A DNA stretch of 64,000 bases from Ferribacterium limneticum. GTDB lineage: Bacteria; Pseudomonadota; Gammaproteobacteria; Burkholderiales; Rhodocyclaceae. The stretch is from positions 3,098,001 to 3,162,000 of the forward strand of contig NZ_CP075190.1 in assembly GCF_020510585.1 (NCBI RefSeq). Direction: 5' to 3'. The stretch's first letter is position 1, and every line of letters starts with the position of its first letter. This document shows, one piece after another, positions 3,884 through 59,181 of this stretch. The notes beneath the pieces were generated by a model. The model saw only the letters and a program-made list of their open reading frames with translations. It did no database searches and was not told the origin of the DNA. The position numbers were made by a program, and so were the translations under genes.

Positions 3884-3921
3884 AAAAAACCGGGCTGCTC
3901 GCACAGCCCGGTTTCATTTTT
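3884..3921. terminator. Bidirectional rho-independent terminator
   Basis: ACCGGGCTG at 3889-3897 pairs with CAGCCCGGT at 3904-3912 around a 6-base loop. There is a run of A on the left and TTTCATTTTT on the right. It lies between the convergent amidotransferase and yajQ operons, so it can end transcripts from both strands. Confidence 0.88.
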
Positions 3922-3969
3922 GCCCGTTTTTTACGGTAGACCGTAGCAAGCCCGGTTGACCGTGGAAGC
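3911..3969 (-). repeat. Dispersed repeat, long copy 1
   Basis: Read on the minus strand this is CTTCCACGGTCAACCGGG, then CTTGCTACGGTCTACCG, then an A-run and GGGCAAAAATGAAACC. It aligns over its whole 59-base length with the copy at 29409-29467, with roughly nine differences. It starts four bases past the yajQ stop and overlaps the right end of the terminator. Confidence 0.85.
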
Positions 3970-3973
3970 GTGC

Positions 3974-4468
3974 TTAGTCCCGGAAATTGCCGTACTTGAT
4001 CGGAAAGTCGGTAATCGACTTGGTAATCAGCGCGATGCAGCCCTGCAGGTCGTCCCGCTTGGCGCCCGTGACACGCACGGTTTCGCCCTGAATCGCGGCC
4101 TGGACCTTGAGTTTGCCATCCTTGACCAGCTTGACGATCTTCTTGGCAAGATCGCTGTCGATCCCGTCCTTGATCTTCATTTCCTGCTTCACCTTGTTGC
4201 CAGAGACACTGACGATTTTCTGGTGATCAAGACGCTTGACACTTTCCTTCTCCTTCTTTTCCATGGCCGGGAAAAGCAGGTCCTTGATCTGGTCAAGCTG
4301 GAAGTCCGAATCGCCCCACAGGGTAATGACCTTGTCCTTCTCGTTGAGCTCGACCTTGGCGGTGGTGCCCTTGAAGTCGTAGCGATTGTCGATCTGACGC
4401 GAGGTGACGTCGATGGCGTTCTTCAACGCCACCATGTCCGCTTCGGAGGTGAAGTCAAAGCTCGGCAT
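3974..4468 (-). CDS. yajQ: YajQ family cyclic di-GMP-binding protein
   Basis: A 164-residue protein of the YajQ/UPF0234 family; members bind nucleotides or cyclic di-GMP, and in Xanthomonas one acts as a transcriptional co-regulator. The diagnostic N-terminus MPSFDFTSEADMVALKNAID is intact, and two similar alpha-beta modules follow. The start is ATG at 4466-4468, since the seven residues upstream (MSLWVII) are not part of the family. It is the last gene of the arg-DUF2788-ppnP operon, five bases after ppnP. The role of this copy in signalling is inferred. Confidence 0.93.
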   Translation of the reverse strand: MPSFDFTSEADMVALKNAIDVTSRQIDNRYDFKGTTAKVELNEKDKVITLWGDSDFQLDQIKDLLFPAMEKKEKESVKRLDHQKIVSVSGNKVKQEMKIKDGIDSDLAKKIVKLVKDGKLKVQAAIQGETVRVTGAKRDDLQGCIALITKSITDFPIKYGNFRD

Positions 4469-4473
4469 GATGA

Positions 4474-4791
4474 TTACCCAAAGTGACAAATGTAGTGATA
4501 GGACTCGCCGTCAGCCACCGAAATTTCGAAGCTGGAGTTGCCCGGCACGTTGAAAGACTGGCCATCGCCATAGGTCTTCCACTCGCTCTCGCCCTTGAGC
4601 TTGACGCGGCACGAACCGCCGACGCCTTCCATGATTTCCGGCGCGCCAGTATTGAAGGTCAGGCTGGACGGCAGGATCACGCCCACCGTTTTCTTCGTGC
4701 CATCGGCCAGCACCACGGTGTGGCTGACGCACTTGCCGTCGAAATAAACATTGGCCTTTTTGACCACGGAAACGTTGTCGTATTGCGACAT
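4474..4791 (-). CDS. ppnP: Pyrimidine/purine nucleoside phosphorylase PpnP
   Basis: A 105-residue cupin-fold protein of the PpnP (YaiE, DUF1255) family, which phosphorolyses nucleosides to base plus ribose-1-phosphate. Family landmarks are [13 protein letters not shown], the KKTVGVILP strand, and the C-terminal [12 protein letters not shown] with a closing YHYICHF. Length is normal. Its ATG directly abuts the stop of the DUF2788 gene, and yajQ follows by five bases, so all three are co-transcribed with the arginine genes. Confidence 0.92.
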
Positions 4792-5016: not shown

Positions 5017-5019
5017 CGA

Positions 5020-6531: not shown

Positions 6532-6563
6532 TTCCGTTCCCTTGTATCGATTAACCGCGCCGC

Positions 6564-10315: not shown

Positions 10316-13300
10316 TTAGTCGATAAGCTCTCGCCACGATGTCCGACGTGAAGACGCTCCAGCAGAACCACCACCAGGGCCAGCAGACTTCGGCGTTGTG
10401 ACGCCGCTGCTATCCTTGACAAGAACCTTGGCTGAACCATCCGAAGTAGTTACGACCGTCAAGCCAACAATCAAATACTGATTGCTAAATGCCTCTCCAG
10501 TTCCAGAGCCGCTCAGTAAATTGATCGTATAGAGGCGAGATGCGCCACCCGATACGCAAGCATCTCCGTTTGGCAAGGCCGATCCGGCAAAAAGGGTATT
10601 TCCAGCCAAGGCCAGAGGAGTAACGATCCGCTCCCCCGAAGTAGGCAAATCAAACCACCACCCGTTTTTGGCCGTCCAGTCTACTGAATTCGTCGACGAA
10701 CCCACCGTCGCCCCATCAGCTGCAACCGTATATGTCTGCTGAACCATGGTCGAATTGGTGCGTATATCGCCCCACCCCGAGTTGGTTAGCGTTTCCTTGA
10801 ATGCTGCCACTGTCTGCGTGGTCGTATCGGTAATATCCCCAGTCCCCATATAACGCCCTGTACCTACGATAACGACCGGGTTGCCATTCACCTCTTTCAA
10901 TCTGGGTGGAATGGTAATCGGCTGCGCCGTTCCCGTACCTGTGGCGAAGCTTGCCAGCAATTGCGCCGACTGATGCGGAAGCACGAGGTTATCGATGTCA
11001 AAGCGCCAGAGGTTGCCCAACAGGTCACCCCCGTAATAACGCAACGCAGTATTGTTCGAACTATCGGCAATCCACGCGTTGATCTTGGCCAAACCACTAG
11101 GACTTCCAGAAGAACCGGCACCCGTCGAGATATCGAGCAACAAACTGCCGGAACCCGCATCGACCACAAACAGATGCCCTTGCCCATCGCCAGTCGTATT
11201 GTTGTAACCAGAGGTAAGTGCGACAACCCACGTACCATCTGCCCGTTTGGCAATGATCGGATTTCCGTAACTTAGACCCAAATTAGTATCAGTAAACTCC
11301 CAGAGCAAGACGGGGCTTTCCGGCGCAGTGATATCAAGCGCGTAATATCCTTTGCCCCCGCCGTTCAACCCCCCGACAAGAATTGTCTTCCACGCACCGC
11401 CGACATAGACATCACCGATGACAGGGGTGCCATCGACAAAATAGGTATGTCGCGATCCATAGGAACTATCTGCCAATTTGTAGAGATTGGACATCACAGC
11501 CGACGGAATGAATGCCCAAGCCTCTTTTCCTGCATTGACACCGGATGCATAAAACGCATGCAACATGCCATCGTTCGCACCAACATAAATCATATGGGTT
11601 CGCGACGCGCTATCAGACTTGAATGCCGCGTAACCTGTATCCGTGTAGCCAAACAGCGGAGGCCCCACATAAACAGGCGTACTGGAAACGATATCGCCCA
11701 GCACATGACTGCGCGAACGATATAGCGAGCCTTCCTTGGTGCGATCGCCCCGCAGGAAGTCCACCAGATTCGTACCATCGTTTGCCAAACCCAGATTTGT
11801 CGTATTCAAACTCGAACATTGTGATGCGACCACTGTCTTGCTGCACAAACCATCAAAATAGCTCTTTTGCCCAGCCGTGAGATTGCCATATGCAAAACTG
11901 GTCAATGTCCCGCTCTTGTTGAAATATATCTGGCGACTGGCAGCACTGGTCACGTCAAGCAAGGCCTGCGCCGACCATTCGGACGTTGAGGAAATGACAG
12001 CTGTCGCCGCATCAATCTGGAAAGACTTTACGTCACCAACCCAGCTCGATGTCGTATAGCTCGCCTGATAAACATAGTTGTTCGCCCCCGCCACCAACTC
12101 CAGGGTATTGGTACTGGCAGCGGAAGCTGCGCCGGCCTTTTCCTGAATTGAAGTCACGACACCATTGATCGCATTCTTCAGCTCGTCGGCATTAAGCGCC
12201 GAGTAGTATTGACCACGCCCATCAACTGCCGCATGCCACAGGTCGTCAATATTGACGGCACCAGCACCGTCATACGGGACCGGCCAAGTAGCAGCACCGC
12301 TTGTCAGGTCTTTATATGCTCCCGAGGTCTGCGTCAGGTAATTTTTGTCGTAAACCAAGGTACCACTGACCCCCAAACCGATGGTGTAAGTAGTCATATG
12401 TTGCCAAGTCGCGGCATCCCGGTCAGCCCCCTTCAGGCTGTTCTCACATACATCGCGACTGGTCCCGGAGGTAGTCGACGTACAGTTCCCCAAGGCGCTC
12501 GTGCGCAAATCGGTGGTGTAATAATACTCAGCAACGTCAGCCAAAGAGTTCGTACTTCCTCCGACAATCCCATCGGTAAAAGTCACACTACTGTAAGTTG
12601 TTGAGTTGGCTAGTGCGGCAGCAGTAGAGCCATTTACGACATAACTCCCGGACTCACAACTTGTGCTTGTAGTTCCGTTAACCCAGGTTGTTCCGGAGTC
12701 AGTTGACGTTTGTGGAGTAACCGCAACGGAATACGTTGTGGCACTGCATCCACGACGACCTAAACGACCGATGCTATACTGAGTCCGCCCCTGAATGGTT
12801 CCAGCCGTAGCCCCATCGTGCATGGGGCGAACCTCCGAAGCATCCTGATTGCCCACCAAGGTAGTTCCATCGAACTTGAGAGGTGCATAGCTAGACGTTT
12901 CGATATTGGCGTTCCAATAACCGTCCGTTGACAGAATGGCGTAGTTACGCTGACAGGAATACTCCATTGGATCATAGGTCTGACCGGATATTTTCTTGGC
13001 AAAATATCGTCCAACCTTGCTCAACGAGGCACGTAATGGCGTCCAGTCGCTTGCCGACTCTGCGTAAAGACTACTGTAGAAATTTGATTTCTGTGTTGTA
13101 TCGAACATCTTTACATCACGGAAATTATTCGTACCATCGGAAATCCCGGTATCCCTGATCGAGGTAAACCCGATTCTGTAGCCAGTGTCCAACGGCGAAA
13201 AAGCTCTACCTACTGCGGTGCGCATCAAGAGAATACGTTTGCGGTAATAGGTGTACCAGTTCGCATAATTAGTGGCATCGGCAGAGGCTGCACTAACTTT

Positions 13301-14095
13301 GACCAGACTAAATACACTACTCGCCCCACCGGTCGAAGCCGTGCATTCCGAATAGAACGTTGTCGATGTATCAAGGCTCCCAGCTGAGCCTGTATATTTC
13401 CAGCTCATCGCAGGCTGGCTACCGGTGTAGACGAAATAATGCGCAAATTTCCATGACGAACTGGATGTGGAACCAGACGCCGAAGAGACATTGAGCACCA
13501 AAGTACCTGCCGAGCCAGTCGATCTGCTCCAGGAGGTGACAGTGCCTGTAACTTTACGAGAGCTACCCGACGTAAGAGTGATCGTTTCTCCGACCACGAA
13601 GGTATTCGCCGTCAGGTAAATCGTAGAAGAATTGATGTTAAAGGTCAGGCTTCCAACAGCCGGCATTACATTAGAAGACAGCCCCAAGATGGTACTGCCA
13701 GCCCTGGCAAGATCTGTTGTCGAACTTCCAGAAACATAACCATCATCCGGAGCCGCATCAAAACTGGAATCGGCATACTGAGTGCCTGTTGAGTCGAGCG
13801 GGGGCTTATAGGTGTAGTTCGGGTTATAGGCCAAACCATTGCACTGCGAAGCCCTGAAACCGTACAACCCGCTGTCCCACATGTCATCCGGCATGTAGTC
13901 GCCATCCATACTCCCCGAGCTGTCTAGGATGAACATAATGTTCGGTTTGGCCGTTATGTTGTCTTTTGTTATCAACGGCTCATTGGCGATATCAGTACTG
14001 GCAGCATCAACCAACATAGAAGCCAGCAAGCCTGTCGAGCAAACCGCAACAAACCGAAGCATGGCCATCAGGCGGGGGGATTTGAGCGATGTCAT
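10316..14095 (-). CDS. pilY1: PilY1-like type IV pilus tip adhesin/assembly protein
   Basis: A 1259-residue exported protein. After a signal peptide (about residues 10-33), the segment MFILDSSGSMDGDYMPDDMW carries the DxSGS metal-site motif of a von Willebrand A-like domain. The C-terminal third holds the PilY1 beta-propeller: SHVLGDIVSSTPVYVG opens it, followed by repeated YVGANDGMLHAF, GLNGGGKGYYALDI and LLGNLWRFDID strands. The last contains the Asp-rich calcium-binding type of loop. The ATG at 14093-14095 is chosen because TTGGAG precedes it and the signal peptide follows; the frame extends upstream without homology. The role is pilus biogenesis, adhesion and twitching control. Confidence 0.93.
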   Translation of the reverse strand: MTSLKSPRLMAMLRFVAVCSTGLLASMLVDAASTDIANEPLITKDNITAKPNIMFILDSSGSMDGDYMPDDMWDSGLYGFRASQCNGLAYNPNYTYKPPLDSTGTQYADSSFDAAPDDGYVSGSSTTDLARAGSTILGLSSNVMPAVGSLTFNINSSTIYLTANTFVVGETITLTSGSSRKVTGTVTSWSRSTGSAGTLVLNVSSASGSTSSSSWKFAHYFVYTGSQPAMSWKYTGSAGSLDTSTTFYSECTASTGGASSVFSLVKVSAASADATNYANWYTYYRKRILLMRTAVGRAFSPLDTGYRIGFTSIRDTGISDGTNNFRDVKMFDTTQKSNFYSSLYAESASDWTPLRASLSKVGRYFAKKISGQTYDPMEYSCQRNYAILSTDGYWNANIETSSYAPLKFDGTTLVGNQDASEVRPMHDGATAGTIQGRTQYSIGRLGRRGCSATTYSVAVTPQTSTDSGTTWVNGTTSTSCESGSYVVNGSTAAALANSTTYSSVTFTDGIVGGSTNSLADVAEYYYTTDLRTSALGNCTSTTSGTSRDVCENSLKGADRDAATWQHMTTYTIGLGVSGTLVYDKNYLTQTSGAYKDLTSGAATWPVPYDGAGAVNIDDLWHAAVDGRGQYYSALNADELKNAINGVVTSIQEKAGAASAASTNTLELVAGANNYVYQASYTTSSWVGDVKSFQIDAATAVISSTSEWSAQALLDVTSAASRQIYFNKSGTLTSFAYGNLTAGQKSYFDGLCSKTVVASQCSSLNTTNLGLANDGTNLVDFLRGDRTKEGSLYRSRSHVLGDIVSSTPVYVGPPLFGYTDTGYAAFKSDSASRTHMIYVGANDGMLHAFYASGVNAGKEAWAFIPSAVMSNLYKLADSSYGSRHTYFVDGTPVIGDVYVGGAWKTILVGGLNGGGKGYYALDITAPESPVLLWEFTDTNLGLSYGNPIIAKRADGTWVVALTSGYNNTTGDGQGHLFVVDAGSGSLLLDISTGAGSSGSPSGLAKINAWIADSSNNTALRYYGGDLLGNLWRFDIDNLVLPHQSAQLLASFATGTGTAQPITIPPRLKEVNGNPVVIVGTGRYMGTGDITDTTTQTVAAFKETLTNSGWGDIRTNSTMVQQTYTVAADGATVGSSTNSVDWTAKNGWWFDLPTSGERIVTPLALAGNTLFAGSALPNGDACVSGGASRLYTINLLSGSGTGEAFSNQYLIVGLTVVTTSDGSAKVLVKDSSGVTTPKSAGPGGGSAGASSRRTSWRELID

Positions 14096-14120
14096 AACAA
14101 CTCCAATTTGAGGGTATCCC

Positions 14121-14789
14121 TCAGAAATGCACAATAGTCTCGGTATAGCTGGTCGTATTCCTGGCACCTGAAACACGGACGACAATGCGGACGTAGGGCA
14201 AAACAGTGCTCTTGCTGACACCAGTCCCGGCGCTGTAATCACGCACTTCATTTGTGCCAGAAGTAGTCGACGCCTTTAGCGGACGAGCGCAATTTATGCC
14301 GGCACTTAGTGAAGAACCAGTCGTATCGCAGAGCCTGAAAGCGACGTAGCTTGCTGTATTGCCATTGATCTTCCCGGCAAGCGTAACCGGCTGCAACGCA
14401 CAACTTGCATAGCTTCCGGAAATTTGCTCGCCACAGTAAGTATTAGTCCATTTCACCAATTTTCTTGTATTGGAAGCAAGTTGCGCCCCTGTCACATCTA
14501 CCAATTCATCGGTACTCGCGTAGTAGCCGATGTCAGCCAAATCATCATCCAACCCAGCAGAATTGCCATTAACCTTGGAATAAAGTGTTGCAATGACTTG
14601 GCGTGTCGCCTGATCTGCAGCCGCTGTCGCCTCTTGCTGGAAACTCAGATTGCCCGCTACCGTAGAGCTCATACTGACTGAACGCATAAGTCCAATACTT
14701 GCAATGGCCAAGGCTGCCAGGGCGAGCATGGCATATAACAGTGACAAGCCACGTTGGTGCTTGCCAGAACGGAGGCTCAGGAGTTCCAC
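14121..14789 (-). CDS. pilX: PilX-like minor pilin
   Basis: A 222-residue prepilin-like protein. The leader ends HQRG, and the mature part begins LSLLYAMLALAALAIASIG. Position 5 of the mature helix is Tyr rather than the Glu found in most pilins, as in GspK/PilX-type tip components. The N-terminal helix ends in an EATAAADQATRQVIATL segment typical of PilX. It overlaps the end of pilW by 13 bases and precedes pilY1, the canonical order. Confidence 0.88.
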   Translation of the reverse strand: MELLSLRSGKHQRGLSLLYAMLALAALAIASIGLMRSVSMSSTVAGNLSFQQEATAAADQATRQVIATLYSKVNGNSAGLDDDLADIGYYASTDELVDVTGAQLASNTRKLVKWTNTYCGEQISGSYASCALQPVTLAGKINGNTASYVAFRLCDTTGSSLSAGINCARPLKASTTSGTNEVRDYSAGTGVSKSTVLPYVRIVVRVSGARNTTSYTETIVHF

Positions 14790-15829
14790 AGCATATTCCT
14801 CAAAGGAATGAGGGTGTCATACACCTTGTATCGATAATGCTTCCAGTTCGTCAGGTTATCCACTTTGATCTGAACGCATTTTCCGCCGCTGCCACTGGCA
14901 CAAGTGACTGCTCCAGATACCGCAATCGCCGCACCGACATCCCACTCAGGGAGACTTGAAGTGACCTCTTCCCTCTCGTATTCCATGCTACGAGAAACAA
15001 GTGCAATCCGAACTGCAATCACTTGCTGCCAACCGGCTGCAGTATTTGGCGTCGTGGTATCGTAGGTATCAATAACTTTGTCCCCGTTCGTATCCTTGCC
15101 GTACAAGGCTTGCAGATTGACAATTTCAGGGGCAATATCCTGCGCAGCTCCACCGAACTCAGTCATCTGCAATACGTTTTGCGCATTGACAGCATAGGAT
15201 CTTGATCGGAGAGTGCTCCCCAAGTTCAAGATATAGCTATTCGCGTCATACCCAGCGGTCGGAGCATTGGCACTAAAGTCTGCATGATCTACCGTCGTCG
15301 CTGTGACTGCTGTCGCCTTAAACAAAGTGCACCCCTGAGCACCGCTCCACACCTCAGGAACCGCCACAAGGTAATCGTTTACAGAAACTGAAAACGACCC
15401 CTTGACCACAAAAGAAGTTCCGGCTTGCAGATGCACTTCCGTTACATCCAGAGGCACTGCGGCACCACGCCGACTACTAGAGAAGACACCAAGGACATCC
15501 GGTGCACCGCTGGCACCATCTGTGATAACAATGGGTGCCAGCGGCATGTTCACAGCGCTACTGCCGTAGCTGCCTTTGACCGTGCAACCCAAAGCAGCCG
15601 GATTGCTCCCCAATCCATACCCAGCCTGCCTCAACTCCCGCTGAATAGCATGAAGACTCACCGAGCCGCTCACTTGGGCATCGCCACCGGAGACTGCCGC
15701 TCGCCTTTGTCCTTCTGCCAATGACAGTACCTGCGTGATCGCCAGTGTCGTCAACAAGCCGATAAACAGGCCGACCATCAGTTCGATGAGCAACAAGCCT
15801 CGTTGATATTTAGCGCTCATGTTAGGCAT
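14777..15829 (-). CDS. pilW: PilW-like minor pilin
   Basis: A 350-residue prepilin with a short leader ending QRG and a mature helix LLLIELMVGLFIGLLTTLA that keeps Glu5. LSLAEGQRRAAVSGGDAQ and SLHAIQRELRQAGYGLG are characteristic of PilW. The size is normal for the largest minor pilin, which bridges PilX/PilY1 to the others at the pilus tip. It overlaps pilV by eight bases. Confidence 0.92.
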   Translation of the reverse strand: MPNMSAKYQRGLLLIELMVGLFIGLLTTLAITQVLSLAEGQRRAAVSGGDAQVSGSVSLHAIQRELRQAGYGLGSNPAALGCTVKGSYGSSAVNMPLAPIVITDGASGAPDVLGVFSSSRRGAAVPLDVTEVHLQAGTSFVVKGSFSVSVNDYLVAVPEVWSGAQGCTLFKATAVTATTVDHADFSANAPTAGYDANSYILNLGSTLRSRSYAVNAQNVLQMTEFGGAAQDIAPEIVNLQALYGKDTNGDKVIDTYDTTTPNTAAGWQQVIAVRIALVSRSMEYEREEVTSSLPEWDVGAAIAVSGAVTCASGSGGKCVQIKVDNLTNWKHYRYKVYDTLIPLRNMLWNS

Positions 15830-16280
15830 CCGTTTTAACGATGCTTGTTGCCGTCACGTACTGATGCGCATCCCCACCCGGCATTGTCCAACTCACCGTG
15901 ATGGAGACATCACCAGTAGCAGCATTGACGATGACAGTTGACGAGCCTGAAGGTAAATTAACGGCGACCTTGTTTGACCAATCTGCGCACTTCGCGTAAC
16001 CATTGCAACTCCCGCTGGCATACTGAGAAAGATTTGGGATATCTACCCACATCTCGCCAATCAACTGACTCGCCAGATAGGCTGCATCTGCCCGAATTTT
16101 CGAACTCGTCTGCTCTCTGGTCATCGCCGCCTGAACGCCCACCAGCCCTAGTATCCCCAAGGCAAAAACCATAATGGCAACCATTGCCTCCAGAATGGCG
16201 AAACCCTGCTGCAATCGGCTCGAAATCCGAGACAAATATTGTTTGGGTGCATGAGTTGAAATTTGCGAGTGCGAAAACAT
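15822..16280 (-). CDS. pilV: PilV-like minor pilin
   Basis: A 152-residue prepilin. The leader is long (about 25 residues) and ends LQQG; the mature helix FAILEAMVAIMVFALGILGLVG is the PilV/GspI pattern with Glu5. The ATG at 16278-16280 is preceded by TTGGAGTG. Cysteines in the body could form a disulfide. It sits between fimT and pilW with a 13-base gap and an 8-base overlap. Confidence 0.92.
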   Translation of the reverse strand: MFSHSQISTHAPKQYLSRISSRLQQGFAILEAMVAIMVFALGILGLVGVQAAMTREQTSSKIRADAAYLASQLIGEMWVDIPNLSQYASGSCNGYAKCADWSNKVAVNLPSGSSTVIVNAATGDVSITVSWTMPGGDAHQYVTATSIVKTDA

Positions 16281-16293
16281 AATCACTCCAAGA

Positions 16294-29398: not shown

Positions 29399-29408
29399 AG
29401 AAACCAGC

Positions 29409-34530: not shown

Positions 34531-34558
34531 TTTGGGACAATGGAGGTCACAAATGTGA

Positions 34559-34598
34559 CTTCCACGGTCAACCGGAAATTTTGACCAAAAATGAAATC
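34559..34598 (+). repeat. Dispersed repeat copy between folE2 and its terminator
   Basis: CTTCCACGGTCAACCGG, AAATTTTGACC and AAAAATGAAATC. It is a single-unit copy sharing the 5' flank CTTCCACGG of the long copies. It starts 28 bases after the folE2 stop. Confidence 0.8.
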
Positions 34599-39686: not shown

Positions 39687-39694
39687 CCGTGAGA
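39656..39694 (-). repeat. Dispersed repeat copy across a stop/start junction
   Basis: Minus strand: CTCACGGTCAACTCAG, TTTTTTGGCTAAATTTG, AAATG. Core and 3' part match other copies, but the central CGG-A-run is changed. It supplies the TGA of the WrbA-like gene and the TTG/GTG start of the DUF2069 gene. Confidence 0.6.
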
Positions 39695-47840: not shown

Positions 47841-48926
47841 TTAACGGCGCTCGACCCACCACAACATACCCATCGCAGCCACCAAAAACAGAGCGGCAGG
47901 CGCGGTAGCGCTGGCAAAAGGTGGCCACGAATTGATCACACCAAGATTCGAGAACAGACCATTCAGGGCATAGAACAGTATGCCCAGCATGACCCCGGCA
48001 AAAATCTTCAGACTGACACCACCAACCCGGTCATGGGAATATCCAAAGGGAAGCGCCAAGGCGACCATGACCAGTGCGGTCAACGGATAGACAAGCTTTT
48101 TCCAGAGAGCAATCTGGTAGCGCTCGGCCTTTTGCTTGTTTTCGACCAGATGCCGGGTGTAGTTGAACAGACCATAGAGCGACATCCGCTCCGGCGCAAT
48201 GGTCAAAATTGCCAATAAATCCGGGGTGACCGCAGAATGCCAGTCAGTTGCGTCGGCTGATTCGACGCGAGAGGTATCGGCATCGAGAATCGTCCTGACC
48301 ACCCCCTTTAGAAGCCATCGGTCAGGCAACTGAAAAGTCGCTTCCTGAGCATCAGTCACCGACTCCAAGGTATTTTCGGTGGTAAATCGATAGATCCGCA
48401 CCCCCTCCAGCTTGGCGTCTGGATTGGCCTTGCGAATATTGATGAAACTGCGCCCATCCTTGATCCACAAACCGCTTTCCAAACCGCTACGGGCAATAAC
48501 CTTGCTCAATGCCTTGGCCTTGATTTCTTGAGCCAACCGCTCACTAAAAGGCACCAGCACCTCGCCAAAAACGAAGGTCAGCAAAGCCAACAGCGCCGCT
48601 GCACGAAACAGGGTCATCAGCAAATCGGACGTCGCCAGGCCAGACGCCCGCAGCACCGTCAGTTCGGAATGTCTGGCCAGCGTAGACAATGCATATAAAG
48701 TGCCGATCAGGGCGGCAATAGGAATCAGCTCATAGACGAGCCCTGGCAACCCAAGCGCCACAAACAAGGCCGCACGCCCTGCTGTGTAGTCAGCCCGCCC
48801 AACGTTTCGCAGTTCATCAACGAAATTGAAAAAACTGAATAGGGCCAAAAATGCCAGCAACACAAGCAAGACTGCGGCGAGGACCTCCCGCATCAGGTAG
48901 CGTTGATGCGTATTGATCTTAAACAC
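47841..48926 (-). CDS. lptG: LPS export ABC transporter permease LptG
   Basis: A 361-residue permease of the LptB2FG complex that extracts LPS from the inner membrane. Six spans flank a periplasmic beta-jellyroll domain. RYLMREVLAAVLLVLLAFLALF and VLRASGLATSDLL (coupling helix) are recognisable. Start GTG at 48924-48926 with GGGGAG upstream; the longer frame upstream reads through the end of lptF and is not LptG-like. Overlaps lptF by eight bases. Confidence 0.96.
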   Translation of the reverse strand: MFKINTHQRYLMREVLAAVLLVLLAFLALFSFFNFVDELRNVGRADYTAGRAALFVALGLPGLVYELIPIAALIGTLYALSTLARHSELTVLRASGLATSDLLMTLFRAAALLALLTFVFGEVLVPFSERLAQEIKAKALSKVIARSGLESGLWIKDGRSFINIRKANPDAKLEGVRIYRFTTENTLESVTDAQEATFQLPDRWLLKGVVRTILDADTSRVESADATDWHSAVTPDLLAILTIAPERMSLYGLFNYTRHLVENKQKAERYQIALWKKLVYPLTALVMVALALPFGYSHDRVGGVSLKIFAGVMLGILFYALNGLFSNLGVINSWPPFASATAPAALFLVAAMGMLWWVERR

Positions 48927-52421: not shown

Positions 52422-53975
52422 ATGAACCCGAGCAATTCATTCGCTTCCGCCTCGACGGCGGCCCCCCGCTTTCCTTACACGCTGCCTGGCGTCATCGTAC
52501 TCGTTGCGATTTACGCCTCGATTCACGCCCTGACCCGCCTGCTCTCGTCAGGCAATCTCGGCGAAGACGACCCGCTCGACAATCTGATCGCCCAGACCCT
52601 CGCACCGGGCTACAACGCCCAGCATGGCCCTCTCTACGACTGGGCACTGTGGCTAGTGCAGCAGGTTTTTGGCAGCGGCCTGCAAGGCTTCCTATTACTC
52701 AAGTACGCCCTGCTGGTCGCCATGGCCGGCTGCCTTTTTCAAATAACGCGAAAAGTCACGCAAAGTGCGCTGTGGGCGTTCATTGCCGTCGAATCAATGG
52801 CCACGGTCTACCAGATTTTTTGGCGTTTTCACGAAGGTTTCACCCATCGCGTCGGCGCCATGGTGCTGGCTGTCGCTACCGTCTGGGCAATCTTTCGCCT
52901 TGTTGATCGGCCGAGTCGTGGCAATTACCTGCTGCTGGCCACGCTGATCGGGCTGGGCTTGCTCACCGAACATATCTACGTCTTTGCCCTGTTCGCCACG
53001 CTGCTGGCCGCCTGGCTGCAAGCGTCCATGCGGAAAACGGTTTTCTCGCTGCCGATGCTGGCAATGCTACCGGTCACCTTGCTGATCGTGACCCCCTACG
53101 CACTCTGGGTTGCAGCCGACCCGCAGCGGGTTATCGCCCTGGGCACAAACCTGCTGCCGGAAATCCCCGCCCACTCACTGCCCGGTATAGCCGCTGGCCT
53201 GCGCGATGCCTTCACGTTTCCGCTGCTCGTCCTGTCGCCCTACATCGTGATCCTGCCGATGGTCTTTCCGGCCATTTTCCGGACCATTTTCAGGCAATCC
53301 CGACTTCGTTCGACCGATCCGCTGATCTTCGACCCAAAGCTGTTTCTGCTCCACATTCTGCTGATCGAACTGAGCGGACTCGTCCTCTTCAACGGCTTGC
53401 TCTATTCGCGCTCGAACTATGCGGTGCACAGCATCCTGCCGATGCTCGTCATCGCCATCCCCTGGCTGACCGAGAAGGCGCGGGAAACCAACCCTAAGCC
53501 ACGCCGCGTGCAAGTCTTCATGGCCGTCCTGCTCGGTTTCACGATCACCGCCTATGCCGTGCGCAGCGGCAACCTGTTCGTCTATGAGCCCTTCTGCTCG
53601 CGCTGCCGCTGGGGCGTCCCCTACACCGAGTTGGCCGAGAAGCTGCGCGAGCAGGGATTTGACCGGGGAACCATCATGGTCAATGACCCTCACGTCGGCG
53701 GCAATCTCCGGCGCTTTTTCCCGGATGCGCGCGTCGTCATGCCCAGCCTGCCTGTTCCGGAAAACCCCGCGGCCAGCAACGGCCAAAAAATCGCCCTCGT
53801 CTGGCCGGTTTCCGACAAGAACGCCGAGATACCGGCCGACTTGCGCACCGCCGCTGGCACAGCCCATGCGCTGGTGCCTCCGGCCATCATCGAGTTGCCC
53901 TGGAAACACCTGTGGAAACCGCTCGGCTACCGGACATCAACCTGGGGCACGGCGATCATGGAAACAACGAACTAG
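52422..53975 (+). CDS. Membrane glycosyltransferase, GT39/ArnT-like
   Basis: A 517-residue polytopic protein with at least ten hydrophobic spans. The first periplasmic loop has GEDDPLDNL, the acidic pair characteristic of ArnT/PMT-type enzymes, followed by QHGPLYDWALWL. The C-terminal periplasmic part (about residues 390-510) includes CSRC and NDPHVGGNLRRFFP. It probably transfers sugar from a lipid-linked donor, but donor and acceptor are unknown. It lies between the acidic protein and valS. Confidence 0.8.
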   Translation: MNPSNSFASASTAAPRFPYTLPGVIVLVAIYASIHALTRLLSSGNLGEDDPLDNLIAQTLAPGYNAQHGPLYDWALWLVQQVFGSGLQGFLLLKYALLVAMAGCLFQITRKVTQSALWAFIAVESMATVYQIFWRFHEGFTHRVGAMVLAVATVWAIFRLVDRPSRGNYLLLATLIGLGLLTEHIYVFALFATLLAAWLQASMRKTVFSLPMLAMLPVTLLIVTPYALWVAADPQRVIALGTNLLPEIPAHSLPGIAAGLRDAFTFPLLVLSPYIVILPMVFPAIFRTIFRQSRLRSTDPLIFDPKLFLLHILLIELSGLVLFNGLLYSRSNYAVHSILPMLVIAIPWLTEKARETNPKPRRVQVFMAVLLGFTITAYAVRSGNLFVYEPFCSRCRWGVPYTELAEKLREQGFDRGTIMVNDPHVGGNLRRFFPDARVVMPSLPVPENPAASNGQKIALVWPVSDKNAEIPADLRTAAGTAHALVPPAIIELPWKHLWKPLGYRTSTWGTAIMETTN

Positions 53976-54037: not shown

Positions 54038-57004
54038 ATGGAACTCGCCAAAGCCTTTGAACCAGCCGATATCGAACGCCGCTGGTACCCCGAGTGGGAA
54101 GCCCAGAATTACTTCGCTGCCGGCGTTGACCGCAGCAAGGCAGCTGACGAAAACTTCTGCATCCTGCTGCCGCCGCCCAACGTGACCGGCACGCTGCACA
54201 TGGGCCACGGCTTCAACCAGACGCTGATGGACGCGCTGACCCGTTACTACCGGATGCGCGGCCACAACACGCTGTGGCAGCCAGGCACCGACCACGCCGG
54301 CATCGCGACGCAGATCGTTGTCGAGCGCCAACTGGACGCCCAGGGCGTTTCCCGCCACGACCTCGGCCGCGAGAAGTTCCTCGAAAAAGTCTGGGAATGG
54401 AAGGAATACTCCGGCAACACCATCACCAAACAGATGCGCCGCATGGGCACCAGCCCGGACTGGAAGCGCGAGCGCTTCACGATGGATGCCGGCCTCAACA
54501 AGGTCGTTACCGAAACTTTCGTCCGCCTGTTCAACGAAGGCCTGATCTACCGCGGCAAGCGCCTGGTGAACTGGGATCCGAAGCTGCACACGGCCGTTTC
54601 CGACCTCGAAGTCGTGCAGGAAGAAGAAGACGGCTTCATGTGGCACATCCGCTATCCGCTGGCTGATGGCTCGGATAGCCTGGTGGTGGCGACGACCCGT
54701 CCGGAAACCATGCTCGGCGACACCGCCGTGATGGTTCATCCGGAAGACGAGCGCTACAAGCACATGATCGGCAAGATGGTGAAATTGCCGCTGACCGATC
54801 GCGAAATCCCGATCATCGCCGACAGCTACGTCGATCTCGAATTCGGTACCGGCTGCGTCAAGGTCACGCCGGCCCACGACTTCAACGACTACGCCGTCGG
54901 CCAGCGCCACGGTCTGCCGATGATTACTGTGTTGGACCTAGACGGCATCGTTCCAAGGGTCGCAACAGTTTATGGATCAGATGGCCGCCTGCGAGACAGC
55001 ATTGATTTGCCGAAGAACCTCATCGGCCTTGATCGTTTTGAAGCGCGCAAGGCCGTTGTCACCGACCTTGAAGCCCTCGGCATTCTGGAAAAGACGGACA
55101 AGCACAAGCTCAAGGTGCCACGCGGCGACCGGACCAATGTCGTCATCGAACCGATGCTCACCGACCAGTGGTTCGTCGCCATGTCGAAGCCGGGAGACGA
55201 CGGCAAGTCGATCACCGAGAAGGCGCTCGACGTCGTCCATTCCGGCGAAATCAAGTTCTACCCGGAAAACTGGGTCAATACCTACAACCAGTGGCTGAAC
55301 AACATTCAGGATTGGTGTATTTCCCGTCAGCTGTGGTGGGGCCACCAGATTCCAGCATGGTACGACGCACTTGGAAATGTTTATGTCGCTCATACCGAAG
55401 AGCAAGCTAGAAATCAGCTTCTGAAAACCATAGCTGAACTCGAGCAAAGAGCAATTACTGAAGAACTAGAAGGTAACGCAGAGGCATCAAGCATAGCCTC
55501 CGATGCTGCAAAAGCTCTGCAACAAAAAGGGCTTCGACGTGACGAAGACGTCCTCGACACCTGGTTCTCCTCCGCCCTGTGGCCGTTCTCGACACTCGAC
55601 TGGACGGGCGACGAGGCCATCGACGCGGCCAATCCGATTTTGCAGCAATATTTGCCGTCGACCGTGCTGGTCACCGGTTTTGACATCATCTTCTTCTGGG
55701 TCGCGCGCATGGTCATGATGACCAAGCAGATCACCGACCAGATCCCGTTCAAGCACGTCTATGTGCATGGCCTGATCCGCGATGGCGAAGGCCAGAAGAT
55801 GTCGAAATCCAAGGGCAATGTGCTCGACCCGATCGACCTTATCGACGGCATCGGCCTCGATGCACTGATCGAAAAGCGGACCACCGGCCTGATGAACCCG
55901 AAGCAAGCCGAGAGCATCGCCAAGAAGACCAAGAAGGAATTCCCGGAAGGCATCGCTTCCTTCGGTACAGACGCCCTGCGCTTCACTTTTGCCAGCCTCG
56001 CCTCGCCCGGCCGCGACATCAAGTTCGACCTCAATCGCTGCGACGGCTACCGCAATTTCTGCAACAAGCTGTGGAACGCCACGCGCTTCGTGCTGATGAA
56101 CGTCGAAGGCCACGACCTAGCCCTCGAACACCAGCAGAACGGCCCGGCCTGCGGCGGTTCAGTCCCGCTCGAATTCAGCTTCGCCGACCGCTGGATCGTC
56201 AGCCAGTTGCAGCGCGTCGAGAAGGAAGTCGAGCAGCACTTCACCGACTACCGTTTCGACCTGGTCGCTCAGGCCATCTACAAATTCATCTGGGACGAGT
56301 TCTGCGACTGGTATCTGGAAATCGCCAAGGTCGAGATCCAGACCGGCAACGACGCCCAGCAGCGCGGCGCCCGCCGGACGCTGGTGCGCACGCTGGAAGC
56401 CGTGCTGCGCCTAGCCCATCCGCTGATCCCGTTCATCACCGAAGAGCTGTGGCAGACCGTGGCGCCGATCGCCGGGCGCAAGACGCACGAGTCGATCATG
56501 CTCGCCGCCTACCCGCGCGCCGAGGAGTACAAGATCGACCCGGTTTCGGAAGCCAAGGTCGAGCGCCTCAAGGCCCTGGCCTACGCGACCCGCAACCTGC
56601 GTGGCGAGATGAATGTCTCGCCCGCCCTGCGCATGCCTTTGCTGGTTGCCGGTGGCGGCGCCGAGATTTCTGAATTTGCCGCCATCCTGCAAGCTCTGGG
56701 TAAGCTCTCCGAGGTACAAATCGTTTCCGACATGCCGGCCGATGCCATGGCACCGGTTGCCGTGGTCGGTGAAACCCGCCTGATGCTCAAGGTGGAAATC
56801 GACGTAGCCGCCGAGCGCGTGCGCCTCGCCAAGGAAATCGAGAAGCTCGAAAAGCTGATTTCGATTGCCCAGGGCAAGCTCGCCAACGAAGGTTTCGTCG
56901 CCCGCGCCCCGGCCGCAGTGATCGATCAGGAAAAACAGCGGGTGGCCGACTTCACGGCGACGCTGGAACAACTCAAGCCCCAACTTGCCAAGCTGGGTAA
57001 CTAA
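54038..57004 (+). CDS. valS: Valyl-tRNA synthetase with a lineage-specific insert
   Basis: A 988-residue class Ia synthetase. HIGH appears as [17 protein letters not shown] as [14 protein letters not shown], and the C-terminal coiled-coil arm ([22 protein letters not shown]) is present. Between [10 protein letters not shown] and [16 protein letters not shown] there are about 51 residues where E. coli-type enzymes have about 21; the extra part is helical and Ala/Glu/Gln-rich. The DNA there (about 55365-55545), and a second stretch at about 54925-55010, uses less GC-rich codons than its flanks. TATAAT at 54003-54008 may be its -10 box. Confidence 0.98.
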
Positions 57005-57015
57005 AAAGGATTTAC

Positions 57016-57495
57016 ATGTCCCAAGACAAACGCGGCATCCTCTCGCAGATCTTCATCGCGTTGATGATCTTTTCGGCGCTGGTAGGCGCCTGGAGCGTCG
57101 CTTTCATGATTTCGTGGCCGAAGGACAAGACCGATGTCTGGAAGCCTGAATTCCGCGTCGTCGCCATCTGCGCCAACAAGGAACCCTGCGGCTTCGCCTA
57201 CAAGGACCTGGCCGACGCCAAGGCCAAGGGCCTGTACACCACGCTGACGCCAAGCGCGCCGGCCGGCGACATCCAGGAAGAAGCCAACTGGCTCAAGTGG
57301 AAGATCGAAAACGGCGTTTTCGAGGTCAAGGCTTCATCCTGGCACTTCCAGACAACGATCCGTTACACGGTCGAGAATGAAGTGCCGATCCTGCTTGACT
57401 ATCAGGATGTCGATGTCCCCAAGGCCTTCTATTACGGCATCGCGGCAGCACTATTCTCGATGCTCGGCCTTTATTTGCGCCGGCTGCGCAGCTGA
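57016..57495 (+). CDS. Membrane-anchored protein of unknown function
   Basis: 159 residues. An N-terminal span (IFIALMIFSALVGAWSVAFMI) and a C-terminal span (AFYYGIAAALFSMLGLYL) enclose a periplasmic-type domain with two Cys (ICANKEPCGFAYKD) that could form a disulfide. It ends LRRLRS on the cytoplasmic side. I do not recognise the family. It follows valS by 11 bases and precedes the inverted pair of dispersed repeats. Confidence 0.75.
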   Translation: MSQDKRGILSQIFIALMIFSALVGAWSVAFMISWPKDKTDVWKPEFRVVAICANKEPCGFAYKDLADAKAKGLYTTLTPSAPAGDIQEEANWLKWKIENGVFEVKASSWHFQTTIRYTVENEVPILLDYQDVDVPKAFYYGIAAALFSMLGLYLRRLRS

Positions 57496-57512
57496 TTGAC
57501 AGCCAGCCCGGC

Positions 57513-57553
57513 ATTCCTGCGGTCAACCGGAAAAAACGGCCAAATTTGAAAAT
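57513..57553 (+). repeat. Dispersed repeat, left arm of an inverted pair
   Basis: ATTCCTGCGGTCAACCGG, AAAAAACGGCC, AAATTTGAAAATC. The bases 57520-57535 are perfectly complementary to 57561-57576, so this copy and the next can form a 16-bp hairpin with a 25-base loop. Confidence 0.8.
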
Positions 57554-59181
57554 CAGGCAATTTTTCCGGTTGACCGTAGCGATACCTGCACCAGCCCCCT
57601 GAGGGCGTTTCCCAGATAGAAACCATCGGCCAGATCTTCCGGCCACAAAACGGCCTCGCGAGCCTGGCCATCAGCCAGCAACGTCGCCCGCAAAACGCCG
57701 GGCAAGGCGCCACTGGCCAGTGGCGGCGTCAGCAAGACACCGTCGCGCACGACAAAGACATTGCTGCGCGCCCCTTCGGCAACTTCGCCACGTTCATTCA
57801 AAAAAACCACGTCGAAAAGTTGCGGATCGCCGTCCAGCGCCTTGAGTGCCGCGTCGTACTGCACCCGGTCCGTGGTCTTGTGGCGACGCAGCGGATAGCC
57901 AGATTCGATGGCCGCGGCGGCCTGCACGGCATGGCGCGTCCCGCTCGGTTCGACGCCCAGCGGGAAGGCTTGGACATCGATGCAGCCATCTTTCGCCAGA
58001 GTCAGCCTCACCCGCCAGGTACCGGCAATGGGCTGTGCAGCCAGCAATTCAGCAACACGTGTTTCGTCACAGGCAAACCCCAGCCATGCCGCCGACCGGC
58101 GCAAACGTTCGAGATGCCCGGCCAGATGCGGATATTGCCCGTCTTCGCGGCGCAGCGTTTCGATCAATAGCAGGCCGGGATCACAGTCGCCCAGAAAACG
58201 GGACTTGAGCAGGCATTCCTGCCACTCGGCTTCCGGCTGCGAATCGGCAACAATGCCACTGCCAACGCCCAGCTTGCCGTGGCCATCGGCGCCCAGTTCC
58301 AGCGTACGAATCGCGACGTTGAGGCGAAAATCGCCATCCGGCGCCAACCAACCGAGCGCCCCGGTGTAAATGCCGCGCTCGGTGTTTTCCAGTTCGGCCG
58401 CAATCTGCATGGCGCGGATTTTCGGCGCCCCGGTAATCGAACCACAGGGAAACAGGGCGCGCAGGATTTCGCCGAAACTCCGCCCGCCGACATCGGCCGA
58501 AACCTCCGACACCATCTGCCAAAGCGTCGGGTATTCCTCGATATCGAACAAGCGGTCGACGACGACGCTGCCCAGGTCAGCGACACGGCCGAGGTCGTTG
58601 CGCAGCAGATCGACGATCATCAGGTTTTCCGCCCGGTCTTTTTCCGAATTGCGCAGTTGCTCAGGCGGCGCGCTACGGGGCGCCGTGCCCTTCATCGGCT
58701 TGGTCAGCAACCGGTCGCTACAGCGTTCGAGAAACAGTTCGGGCGACAGCGAAAGCAAGCCATGCCGGGCATCGCCAACGAATCCGCCGTAGCGAACCGG
58801 CTGCCGCTCGCGCAGTCGGGTATAGAGCGCCAGTGGCGAACCAAACCATTCGAATTTGAGCGGGAAGGTGAAATTGACCTGATAGCAGTCACCTTCAAAA
58901 ATTAGCCGTTTTATCCGGTTGACCGTAAGAACATAGGTTTCTTCATCAATCGCCGGCTGCAAGCCGCCGACACCAGCCACGCCATGGCCAAGCAGCTCCA
59001 ACCAGGCCTGAGCTTCGGCCGAAGGCAGCGAAATCCGTTTCGAGAACCGCCAGAAACGGGCCAGCGGTCGCCCGCCGGGTTGCCAGTCAACCGGCGCCGA
59101 CTTGGGTTCGAGCAGATAGCCCAGTTCATAGTCGAGCGCAACGACTGTCCACTGCGGATCATCCTGCAGCGCCAGCAACAC
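57553..59181 (-). CDS. pabB: Aminodeoxychorismate synthase component I fused to aminodeoxychorismate lyase (PabB-PabC)
   Basis: Makes p-aminobenzoate for folate. The chorismate-binding domain has GDCYQVNFTFPL, KPMKGTAPR, DRAENLMIVDLLRNDLGRV and CGSITGAPKIRAM. After about residue 325 a class IV aminotransferase-like lyase follows, with KTTDRVQYDAALKAL (PLP Lys region), VVFLNERGEVAEGARSNVFV and PLASGALPGVLR. The listed start is the first GTG (59179-59181). In-frame sequence upstream (WRFDGLIDCLEVNDAASLKA) looks like the true N-terminus, but the only start-like codon there is ATA at 59302-59304. The start is therefore unresolved. Confidence 0.92.
   Translation of the reverse strand: MLLALQDDPQWTVVALDYELGYLLEPKSAPVDWQPGGRPLARFWRFSKRISLPSAEAQAWLELLGHGVAGVGGLQPAIDEETYVLTVNRIKRLIFEGDCYQVNFTFPLKFEWFGSPLALYTRLRERQPVRYGGFVGDARHGLLSLSPELFLERCSDRLLTKPMKGTAPRSAPPEQLRNSEKDRAENLMIVDLLRNDLGRVADLGSVVVDRLFDIEEYPTLWQMVSEVSADVGGRSFGEILRALFPCGSITGAPKIRAMQIAAELENTERGIYTGALGWLAPDGDFRLNVAIRTLELGADGHGKLGVGSGIVADSQPEAEWQECLLKSRFLGDCDPGLLLIETLRREDGQYPHLAGHLERLRRSAAWLGFACDETRVAELLAAQPIAGTWRVRLTLAKDGCIDVQAFPLGVEPSGTRHAVQAAAAIESGYPLRRHKTTDRVQYDAALKALDGDPQLFDVVFLNERGEVAEGARSNVFVVRDGVLLTPPLASGALPGVLRATLLADGQAREAVLWPEDLADGFYLGNALRGLVQVSLRSTGKIA
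57556..57582 (-). repeat. Dispersed repeat, right arm of an inverted pair, coding for the PabB/C C-terminus
   Basis: Minus strand: TATCGCTACGGTCAACCGG then AAAAATTGCCTGA. It encodes the last residues (SLRSTGKIA) of the pabB/C fusion. Together with the left arm it lies between two convergent genes and may act as a two-way terminator, although no long T-run follows. Confidence 0.75.
58892..58929 (-). repeat. Dispersed repeat copy inside pabB
   Basis: Minus strand: CTTACGGTCAACCGG, ATAAAACGGCTAATTTTTG, AAGG. It codes for LTVNRIKRLIFEG just before the conserved GDCYQV motif. Translation in queG is similarly TVNRKK. Because the segment fits the PabB alignment, part of the similarity may be chance. 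Confidence 0.5.

Follow-up and report, generated by a model that had tools for sequence, protein, structure and literature searches.

What is the short repeat that recurs, in spacers and in genes alike, along a 64,000-nt stretch of Ferribacterium limneticum contig NZ_CP075190.1 (positions 3,098,001–3,162,000; assembly GCF_020510585.1; GTDB genus Azonexus), hereafter the window? An earlier note described eight copies there and considered a REP-like mobile repeat, a nucleoid-protein or transcription-factor site, and an RNA 3′-end processing signal. We consider it quite probable, judging from the sequence, that the repeat is instead a putative DNA uptake signal sequence representing a new system in Rhodocyclales. 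This reading rests on the abundance, consensus and architecture of the repeat, the substitution origin of its alignable genic copies, and its dialects, together with its scarcity in low-GC DNA and the presence of ComEC and minor pilins.

Abundance and architecture of the repeat

The exact 11-mer CGGTCAACCGG occurred 491 times in the genome of the window (G000), compared to 27 times for the reversed pattern, and the family therefore withstood the comparison with expected frequency proposed in the earlier note. A PWM learned from 464 kb of G000, with 120 kb kept aside as a held-out test, identified 109 and 36 places in the two sets, respectively, at the ≥14-bit threshold used for place counts, and none in the reversed-pattern control of either set. 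The density is ~0.25 sites per kb, the total an estimated ~1,000 sites across the 4.42-Mb genome, and the scores form a continuum from 58 down to 10 bits. The dispersed family is thus real, and all eight segments reported earlier were recovered with 39–54 bits; eight was too low a count, the window containing seven more sites, mostly weaker (Table 1). The core ACGGTCAACC was found 85 times in 844 kb of G000 (reversed control, 3), while its one-mismatch forms numbered 105 versus 98 in the control, making near-misses scarce. Two dialect B genomes (see below) carried 69 and 56 exact cores, with one-mismatch forms at 85 versus 30 and 75 versus 25 in their controls.

The unit is ~40 bp long and directional, ATTGCCAC-GGTCAACCGG-AAAAAW-nGGCC-AAAATTGAAAT, in which two AT tracts, about a helical turn apart, lie downstream of a core. 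Conservation spans roughly −8 to +31 relative to the core, with abrupt limits, confirming the shared spacing between the core and the AT part. The AT tracts occupy +10 to +15 and +21 to +26 in the dialect of G000 (A), and +13/+14 and +22 to +25 in dialect B; position −2 in dialect A is A in 73% and G in 19% of sites. The core, CGGT-CA-ACCG, is near-palindromic and the AT tracts flank it on one side alone, in agreement with the directional unit of spacers and genes originally described. The A-rich run of that description is present, although it is really an A/T tract (AAAAAA, AAATTT, AATTTT and similar). Likewise, the segments at 3911 and 29409 are real but composite, each consisting of a 5′ partial unit (core only) and a full unit 19 bp downstream. 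The partial copy at 29407 carries GGCCAACC and does not match the composite pattern exactly.

Table 1 Repeat sites and minor-pilin genes of the window
Feature	Position	Strand	Score	Location and remarks
Weak site, additional	2237..2277	−	22.2 bits	
Full site, second core of composite	3911..3951	−	44.0 bits	
5′ partial unit of the 3911 composite	3930..3970	−	16.7 bits	exact composite-pattern match
Rest of apparent minor-pilin operon	10316..16373	−	PilY1 PF05567 132.7 bits; PilW PF16074 63.3 bits	
Candidate receptor, GspH/FimT-like minor pilin	16294..16938	−	PF12019 35.4 bits (cut-off 21)	plus N_methyl
Candidate receptor, type IV minor pilin ComP_DUS	16911..17393	−	PF16732 47.5 bits (cut-off 27.3)	plus N_methyl
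Site, additional	19504..19544	+	42.6 bits	in gene 19339-22137; absent from the earlier note
Site, additional	20930..20970	−	32.0 bits	in gene 19339-22137
Site	26991..27031	+	50.6 bits	in queG-like gene 25882-27096, ~30 codons before its end
5′ partial unit, first core of composite	29407..29447	+	12.1 bits	19 bp upstream of second core
Full site, second core of composite	29426..29466	+	48.9 bits	3′ end of Rieske oxygenase gene (29468-30814, −)
Site	34557..34597	+	53.4 bits	relatives aligned; spacer 3′ of folE2, ahead of terminator-like hairpin
Site	39657..39697	−	39.0 bits	overlaps 3′ end of gene 39096-39686
Site, additional	48200..48240	−	30.8 bits	intragenic
Weak site, additional	52796..52836	+	16.6 bits	intragenic
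Weaker site, additional	55632..55672	−	24.2 bits	in gene 54038-57004
Site, arm of inverted pair	57512..57552	+	53.7 bits	between convergent genes
Site, other arm of inverted pair	57544..57584	−	46.1 bits	overlaps 3′ end of pabB-like gene
Site	58893..58933	−	39.6 bits	in pabB-like gene 57553-59181
Weak site, additional	62193..62233	+	14.2 bits	intragenic

Genomic distribution and dialects

A census of 146 sites in 584 kb of G000 placed 88 (60%) within called genes, in both orientations, and 41 of the 52 same-strand genic sites shared one codon phase, a strong bias. Among the spacer sites, 28/57 were at most 60 nt from a stop codon, and the density was highest in convergent spacers (0.96 per kb, compared to 0.19 per kb in genes). 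Of the eight segments in the earlier note, those at 3911, 29409, 34559, 39656, 57513 and 57556 do lie close to a stop codon, at distances of up to 30 nt, but those at 26995 and 58892 do not. The exact 11-mer was split 240/251 between the strands, and no replication strand polarity was detected for the 146 sites (p 0.61). In unselected stretches, 9 sites were found in 120 kb below 58% GC versus 135 in 460 kb above, a composition-based proxy for acquired DNA for which the GC-rich core is a confounder. Inverted pairs were not enriched: the 130 sites scoring ≥20 bits included three such pairs within 120 bp, where ~3.5 neighbours of any orientation are expected.

When the same consensus was sought in related genomes, as the earlier note had proposed, strong enrichment was restricted to one genus, GTDB Azonexus (G206 and G247 below are genomes of this genus; G203, G236, G240 and G244 are relatives). 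More than 30 copies of ACGGTCAACCGGAAAW occurred in 10/60 genus genomes and none in 29/60; TGCGGTCGACCG was counted 462 times in G247, 276 times in G206 and 14 times in G000. Members of the genus differ in the core, having dialect A (CGGTCAACCGG, in the clade of G000), dialect B (TGCGGTCGAC, in others, at 0.5–0.7 places per kb) or neither. The place counts per 200 kb were 138 and 103 in two dialect B genomes, compared to 8 and 0 in the controls. The inner core GCGG is present in dialect B and absent from dialect A of the window.

This distribution bears on the rival that survives best, a nucleoid-associated or chromosome-structuring protein that would bind the near-palindromic core, with sites maintained for chromosome folding. 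The core would suit a dimer, sites occur on either strand throughout the genome without polarity, and the frequent near-misses of dialect B resemble those of intracellular-protein sites. We nevertheless regard this explanation as improbable: the unit is directional with one-sided AT tracts, core near-misses are scarce in G000, and a switch of the whole set of sites between dialects within a genus, together with low-GC scarcity, would be odd for a housekeeping function and is expected for uptake signals. Of the three earlier guesses, a transcription-factor or nucleoid-protein site comes nearest because binding by a protein is very likely; a DNA-uptake receptor, which the earlier note did not list, fits better because of the dialects, the strong consensus in G000, the low-GC scarcity and the lack of strand polarity.

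Origin of the copies

To distinguish substitution from insertion, 51 sites in 184 kb were compared with relatives, including the site-poor G236 and G244; gap counts cover the alignable sites alone, many sites having defied alignment. Genic sites were ungapped in 10/17 cases in G236 and 9/11 in G244, and in 14 of these 19 alignments the sequence of the relative scored below 14 bits. Gaps of at least 20 nt were absent from the alignable genic sites in G236 (0/17) and G244 (0/10) and occurred at 1/27 in G240. Within the window, the 26991 site was kept without gaps in G240, and the corresponding ungapped stretch of G244 scored −3.2. The 48200 site was ungapped in three relatives with dropping scores (G240 28.0, G236 17.3, G244 3.4), as was the 55632 site (21.2, 16.2 and −20.5, respectively). 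The 58893 site was ungapped in G240 (35.8) and G244 (9.6) with small gaps in G236, and the 39657 site aligned without gaps both in G240, where it is kept (36.1), and in G203, where it is lost (−0.1), with small gaps in G236 and G244. Judging from these alignments, the alignable gene-located copies arose by substitution, not insertion. Gaps were more frequent at genic sites than in windows drawn at random from genes (7/17 versus 46/599 in G236; 5/26 versus 43/787 in G240), perhaps because many of the sites occupy variable gene ends. In the published H. influenzae test, 24% of protein alignments had gaps (PMC1626085, section 7).

Among spacer copies, gaps of at least 20 nt occurred at 3/10 sites (G236/G244), and insertion may therefore apply to some of them. 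The 29426 site is a single unit in several relatives and is missing, with a shorter spacer, from G236 and G244. The composite subfamily appears copied: one 21-base pattern occupies 15 places in G000 and is also found in 7 other genomes, and 16/20 composite loci read contain a short inverted repeat with changing letters.

REP/BIME elements with RAYT transposases are short, dispersed, partly palindromic and frequent in spacers. A REP/MITE-like repeat spread by a RAYT-type transposase, possibly domesticated later, would account for the composite subfamily and the gapped spacer sites. As the origin of the family, it is very unlikely: the alignable genic copies of the Azonexus repeat bear no mark of insertion, same-strand genic sites concentrate in one codon phase, the scores are continuous, and the single unit tested has no unusual fold. 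With no gap of at least 20 nt at these sites in either site-poor relative, the earlier mobile-repeat guess fails for genic copies, for which REP insertion is largely refuted. A transcription terminator or mRNA 3′-end signal, also guessed at earlier, is hardly credible: it would explain the enrichment by stop codons and in convergent spacers and the folding of the 57512/57544 inverted pair (−41 kcal/mol, z −6.46), but most sites are intragenic in both orientations, inverted pairs are few, and no unusual RNA fold was found in one single unit and two composites (z −0.71, 0.26 and −0.81).

Candidate uptake machinery

ComEC was present in 12/12 genus genomes tested, including G000 and motif-less species; in the dialect B genome G206 the match was divided between two contigs, and one of the two parts contains an internal TAG. 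The window itself codes for two candidate receptors within an apparent minor-pilin operon, which also encodes a small protein that matches N_methyl weakly (19.2 bits, below the cut-off of 21.2). The ComP_DUS family was found in 23/23 tested genomes of the genus, motif-bearing and motif-less alike, and the name ComP was absent among 19 PDB matches of the 16911-17393 pilin. The GspH/FimT-like pilin was found in 14/14 genomes tested, motif-less members included. ComEC, GspH/FimT and ComP-family pilins were equally frequent in motif-less members, and therefore no gene co-occurring with the motif was found among them.

For a putative uptake signal we infer competence, receptor binding, uptake bias, kinking and a history of drift, as follows. 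A type IV pilus/competence receptor would bind the core (GGTCRAC plus flanking bases). Bending or kinking of the duplex on entry into the outer-membrane pore would be eased by the pair of AT tracts downstream of the core, ~one helical turn apart. Self-type DNA would be preferentially imported and then recombined. Sites would build up by substitution at permissive spots (gene ends, spacers, tolerant codons) because fragments with better sites would be imported and recombined more often, and Azonexus members would have drifted to separate dialects.

Discussion

Uptake sequences are described for two families, Pasteurellaceae and Neisseriaceae, in the literature sampled here. If our reading is correct, Azonexus adds a third group, in which species with dialect A, B or neither would serve as independent replicates for old questions: the identity of the receptor, shifts of specificity, and whether selection or drive underlies uptake sequences. 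Motif-bearing Azonexus are predicted to be naturally transformable with inbuilt kin recognition, which would provide a design rule for transforming DNA aimed at them. The motif may also confound promoter and terminator annotation in Azonexus genomes.

The Neisseriaceae DUS (GCCGTCTGAA and dialects) is described in portions of PMC2397512 and PMC3630211 as abundant genome-wide, biased to the core genome and absent from acquired DNA. The Azonexus repeat shares the genome-wide abundance, the dialects and the bacterial class and, by the low-GC proxy, also resembles the DUS in its core-genome bias and its rarity in acquired DNA. The sequences are unrelated, however: the DUS is continuous, up to ~13 nt and without AT tracts (excerpts of PMC12616744), whereas the Azonexus consensus lacks the 5′-CTG-3′ of the DUS core and has AT tracts.

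The Pasteurellaceae USS (Hin AAGTGCGGT, Apl ACAAGCGGT) likewise combines a core with two downstream AT segments about a helical turn apart. Inverted pairs are common, though not necessary, in USS/DUS; in Azonexus they are not enriched. The USS is very abundant, 60–65% in coding sequence, of substitution origin and divided into dialects (parts of PMC1626085 and PMC12616744), and the Azonexus repeat resembles it in abundance, genic share (~60%), substitution origin of genic copies and dialects. USS/DUS are also known to serve secondarily as terminators (PMC12616744, in part). The Azonexus repeat belongs to another class, Betaproteobacteria, and is less dense than the ~1 per kb given for USS/DUS in excerpts of PMC1626085. 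Its core runs on into RAC(CGG), its first AT tract starts several bases farther from the core, and its consensus of ~40 bp exceeds the up to 32 nt of the USS in the text sampled. Dialect A of the window has ACGG in place of the USS inner core GCGG. The extended Hin-USS given in excerpts of PMC12616744, AAAGTGCGGTCAATTTT, has TGCGGTC in common with dialect B; with the A-at-+4 variant of that dialect it shares TGCGGTCAA. One could speculate, although we consider it unlikely, that self-DNA recognition has a third lineage in Azonexus, with two dialects and perhaps another nearby. Its inner core TGCGGTC(A), matching the Pasteurellaceae USS, would then reflect one shared mode of receptor-DNA recognition, through common ancestry, transfer or strong convergence via a homologous minor pilin, in which case Azonexus could expose the still-unproven USS receptor.

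Abundance and architecture of the repeat

We read the dispersed repeat of F. limneticum as a putative DNA uptake signal sequence, an interpretation that we consider quite probable from the sequence evidence. The eight segments grouped in the earlier note were confirmed at their positions as members of one family, and a matrix scan added seven more sites in the window, mostly weaker. In the complete genome (G000; 4,419,140 bases, one contig, in which the window spans 3,098,001–3,162,000), the exact 11-mer CGGTCAACCGG occurred 491 times, divided 240 and 251 between the strands, compared to 27 times for the reversed pattern. A 41-column matrix learned from the window and 20 evenly spaced 20-kb stretches of the genome (464 kb) found 122 matches of at least 12 bits in this sequence, compared to one in the reversed control and one in a first-order Markov sequence. 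These first site counts were made in the same 464 kb that were used to learn the matrix, and L071–L076 served as held-out sequence. At 14 bits or more, 109 distinct places in the learning sequence and 36 in the held-out 120 kb, with none in the reversed control of either, extrapolated to ~1,000 sites per genome.

The matrix consensus, GATTGCCACGGTCAACCGGAAAAATTGGCCAAAATTGAAAT, was conserved from about −8 to +31 (zero being the first G of GGTC) with a sharp cut beyond. Downstream of the core, the unit has two A/T tracts, at +10 to +15 and at +21 to +26, with a GC-rich spacer between them and GAAAT after the second. In a composite subfamily, the core is followed 19 bp on by either another core or a short inverted repeat, and then by the AT tracts. 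Two composites lie in the window (Table) and others were found at L238–L257; the composite pattern CGGTCAACCGGGYTTRCTACG had 15 matches in G000 and was present in eight of the 60 genus genomes in all.

Table. Coordinates of features in the window and in two genomes
Feature	Location	Strand	Details
Composite unit	window 3911-3969
Composite unit	window 29409-29467
Apparent minor-pilin operon	window 10316-17393	-	ComP_DUS-family pilin, GspH/FimT-like pilin (16294-16938), weak N_methyl protein, PilW, PilY1; adjoins ispH/lytB, an FKBP gene and lspA
ComP_DUS-family pilin	window 16911-17393	-	47.5 bits (cut-off 27.3)
cspA thermoregulator	window 62393-62751	-	sole RNA-family match in the window, 91.1 bits
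Low-GC region (L258-L263, L034)	G000:C1:680001-820000		at least 140 kb, one site; proteins scanned include ring-hydroxylating oxygenases, P450, thiolase, RND and ABC efflux
Tandem repeat in G244	G244:C1:1239238-1243686		ACGGTCAGC/ACGGTCGGC, 618-base period, apparently unrelated to the motif

Dialects of the motif

Among 199 genomes of the family, strong enrichment of CGGTCAACCGG was confined to the genus of the window, which we infer to be GTDB Azonexus, a genus that takes in Dechloromonas species. Besides G000, the 11-mer exceeded its control in genus members G177 (97 vs 20) and G147 (37 vs 21), showed no enrichment in the remaining genus members of the sample, G062 (33 vs 34) and G112 (18 vs 29), and outside the genus reached at most 17 copies (control 22). 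The pattern ACGGTCAACCGGAAAW occurred more than 30 times in 10 of 60 genus genomes (147–362 copies in eight of them, 63 in G201 and 33 in G203) and was absent from 29; its control gave no match.

Other members carried TGCGGTCGACCG in its place (462 copies in G247, 276 in G206, 237 in G208 and 135 in G238, compared to 14 in G000), counts in which one place can appear on both strands owing to the palindromic core. Matrices derived de novo for this second form (dialect B, as opposed to the ACGG form, dialect A, of the clade of the window) returned TTGCGGTCGAC as the core and placed the A/T tracts at +13/+14 and +22 to +25. Per 200 kb they gave 157 matches for G247, compared to 8 and 7 in the controls, and 152 for G206, compared to 3 and 9, both strands of palindromic cores included. 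At a fixed threshold, G247 had 138 distinct places and G206 had 103 (8 and 0 in the reversed controls), or 0.69 and 0.52 per kb. Five genus members drawn contained 95–728 copies of TGCGGTCRAC (controls 16–34), elsewhere in the family there were at most 81, and some other genera showed a modest excess, for example G106 with 72 vs 12.

ACGGTCRGC with the same flanks, seen in L112, is possibly a third dialect. The genome of origin (G256, MAG AG28, 2.9 Mb) held 492 copies vs 202 in the control, and the other genomes tested held 195–413 vs 228–330, the 413 of G244 including a tandem repeat (Table). Neither main dialect was found in G214, G225, G226, G237, G241 or G244.

Origin of the sites

The earlier note had suggested a mobile repeat. 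We aligned 184 kb of G000 containing 51 sites with 200 kb of G240, a motif-bearing relative in the same genus, and with 100 kb each of the site-poor relatives G236 and G244, which had 10 and 3 motif matches per 100 kb, respectively. Among aligned genic sites, 18 of 26 were kept at 14 bits or more in G240, three were ungapped below 14 bits and five were gapped. The corresponding numbers of kept sites, ungapped sites with a weak or absent motif, and gapped sites were 4, 6 and 7 of 17 for G236, and 1, 8 and 2 of 11 for G244. Individual sites lost their score without any gap: site 26991 fell from 50.4 to −3.2 bits in G244, site 86572 from 48.9 to −4.8 and −8.1 bits in relatives, and site 168024 from 39.0 to −12.8 bits in G240.

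Insertion of a 40-bp unit would leave a gap of at least 20 nt in such alignments. Under slightly different alignment settings, gaps of this size were seen at one of 27 genic sites against G240 and at none of 17 and 10 against G236 and G244, respectively; for spacer sites the numbers were 0 of 6, 1 of 6 and 2 of 4 in the same order. Speaking against substitution, genic sites had gaps at a higher rate than genic windows drawn at random (46 of 599 for G236, 43 of 787 for G240), perhaps because many of them are found near variable ends of genes. The mostly ungapped alignments and the rarity of long gaps led us to reject the mobile-repeat explanation for the alignable genic copies, and they indicate that these sites arose by substitution, not insertion. 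In a similar test at the protein level on the uptake signal sequence (USS) of H. influenzae, Redfield and others (PMC1626085) found gaps in 24% of alignments and concluded substitution.

The composite subfamily may have been copied rather than mutated in place. Its middle keeps TACG...CGTA with changing letters (TACGTGAAACGTA, TACGCAAAGCGTA, TACGGTCTACCGTA and others) in 16 of the 20 loci examined.

Distribution of the sites in the genome

At a threshold of 14 bits, 584 kb of G000 contained 146 sites without overlaps; called genes held 88 of these (0.19 per kb). Tandem spacers had 32 sites (0.55 per kb), divergent spacers 10 (0.60) and convergent spacers 15 (0.96), and one site lay at an edge; these gene and spacer densities are approximate, since the gene calls were home-made and missed genes, including most of the pilin operon at 9.6–17.4 kb. 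Of the 57 spacer sites, 28 were found no more than 60 nt from a stop and 11 equally close to a start. Nearly all sites below 30 bits (38 of 40) were genic, and one codon phase held 41 of the 52 same-strand genic sites, so that the motif is read as peptides such as ATVNRKKALKMK.

The earlier note had also proposed an RNA 3′-end processing signal. An unusual RNA fold was present at the inverted pair 57512/57544 and absent in one single unit and two composites; these normal folds, together with the 88 of 146 sites in called genes, argue against an RNA 3′-end signal as the primary function, which we rejected. An RNA-family search of the window at the gathering threshold returned nothing at the repeats; its sole match is listed in the Table. 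A strand-biased signal of the KOPS or Chi kind was ruled out by the lack of replichore polarity (p 0.61). Inverted pairs were not enriched (the 130 sites scoring 20 bits or more formed three of them within 120 bp), and site spacing was a little more even than random (CV 0.75, 44 intervals, 184 kb).

Low-GC DNA

Across 580 kb of unselected sequence in 5-kb bins, bins below 58% GC (120 kb) contained 9 sites and the other bins (460 kb) 135, in a test based on composition for a motif whose core is GC-rich and which as a whole is AT-rich. Two regions, 680–820 kb and 1900–2020 kb, had been picked for their few listed plus-strand copies and were left out of this count; with them included, the bins below 58% GC (325 kb) had 18 sites and the others (515 kb) 152. 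The first (Table) is perhaps an acquired degradation island; L034 and L261 showed degradation, efflux and similar genes and no mobile genes among the proteins scanned. The second was not devoid of the motif, with 19 sites in 120 kb. L035, with 40.9% GC and a phage-type integrase, had no sites. L043 (GC 0.578; signalling and TonB-receptor genes) also had none and yet is not obviously foreign, with no mobile hallmark among five proteins scanned, indicating that few sites do not always mean acquired DNA.

Competence genes and candidate receptors

ComEC was present in all 12 genus genomes tested. In G200 and G206 it falls into two pieces, and that of G206 contains an internal TAG. The window encodes an apparent minor-pilin operon with a ComP_DUS-family pilin (Table). 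This protein matched type IV pilins in general in the PDB (best, PilA at 1.4e-13), and none of its 19 matches was named ComP. PF16732 was matched in 23 of 23 and PF12019 in 14 of 14 genus members tested, which makes these pilins candidates and not evidence. By presence or absence, the ComEC, GspH/FimT and ComP_DUS families did not separate motif-bearing from motif-less genomes.

Comparison with known uptake sequences

Our search of the open literature found no report of the motif and no paper on uptake sequences in Rhodocyclales or Rhodocyclaceae or on uptake sequences together with natural transformation in Dechloromonas; GGTCAACCGG is found in 29 papers, and its occurrences among the matches listed look like chance.

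PMC1626085 describes an excess of exact copies as a peculiarity of USS and of the DNA uptake sequence (DUS) of Neisseriaceae. In 844 kb of G000, ACGGTCAACC was found in 85 exact copies (reversed control 3), and its one-mismatch neighbors totaled 105 vs 98 in the control. The consensus of dialect B was weaker, with 69 and 56 exact copies of TGCGGTCGAC and one-mismatch counts of 85 vs 30 and 75 vs 25 in the control. These common near-misses in dialect B make us slightly less confident in the uptake-signal reading.

In the USS of H. influenzae and A. pleuropneumoniae, a 9-nt core is followed by two AT-rich segments spaced by roughly one helical turn; the USS forms dialects by subclade and lies to 65% in coding sequence (PMC1626085). 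Both its inner core GCGG and its AT tracts are important for uptake (PMC7811141). The Azonexus motif resembles a USS in most features that can be tested in sequence, inverted pairs excepted. The extended H. influenzae form, given as AAAGTGCGGTCAATTTT in PMC12616744, has TGCGGTC in common with dialect B and, with the A-at-+4 form of that dialect, TGCGGTCAA; dialect A has ACGG instead. The Azonexus motif thus belongs to neither of the two sequence families described, USS and DUS.
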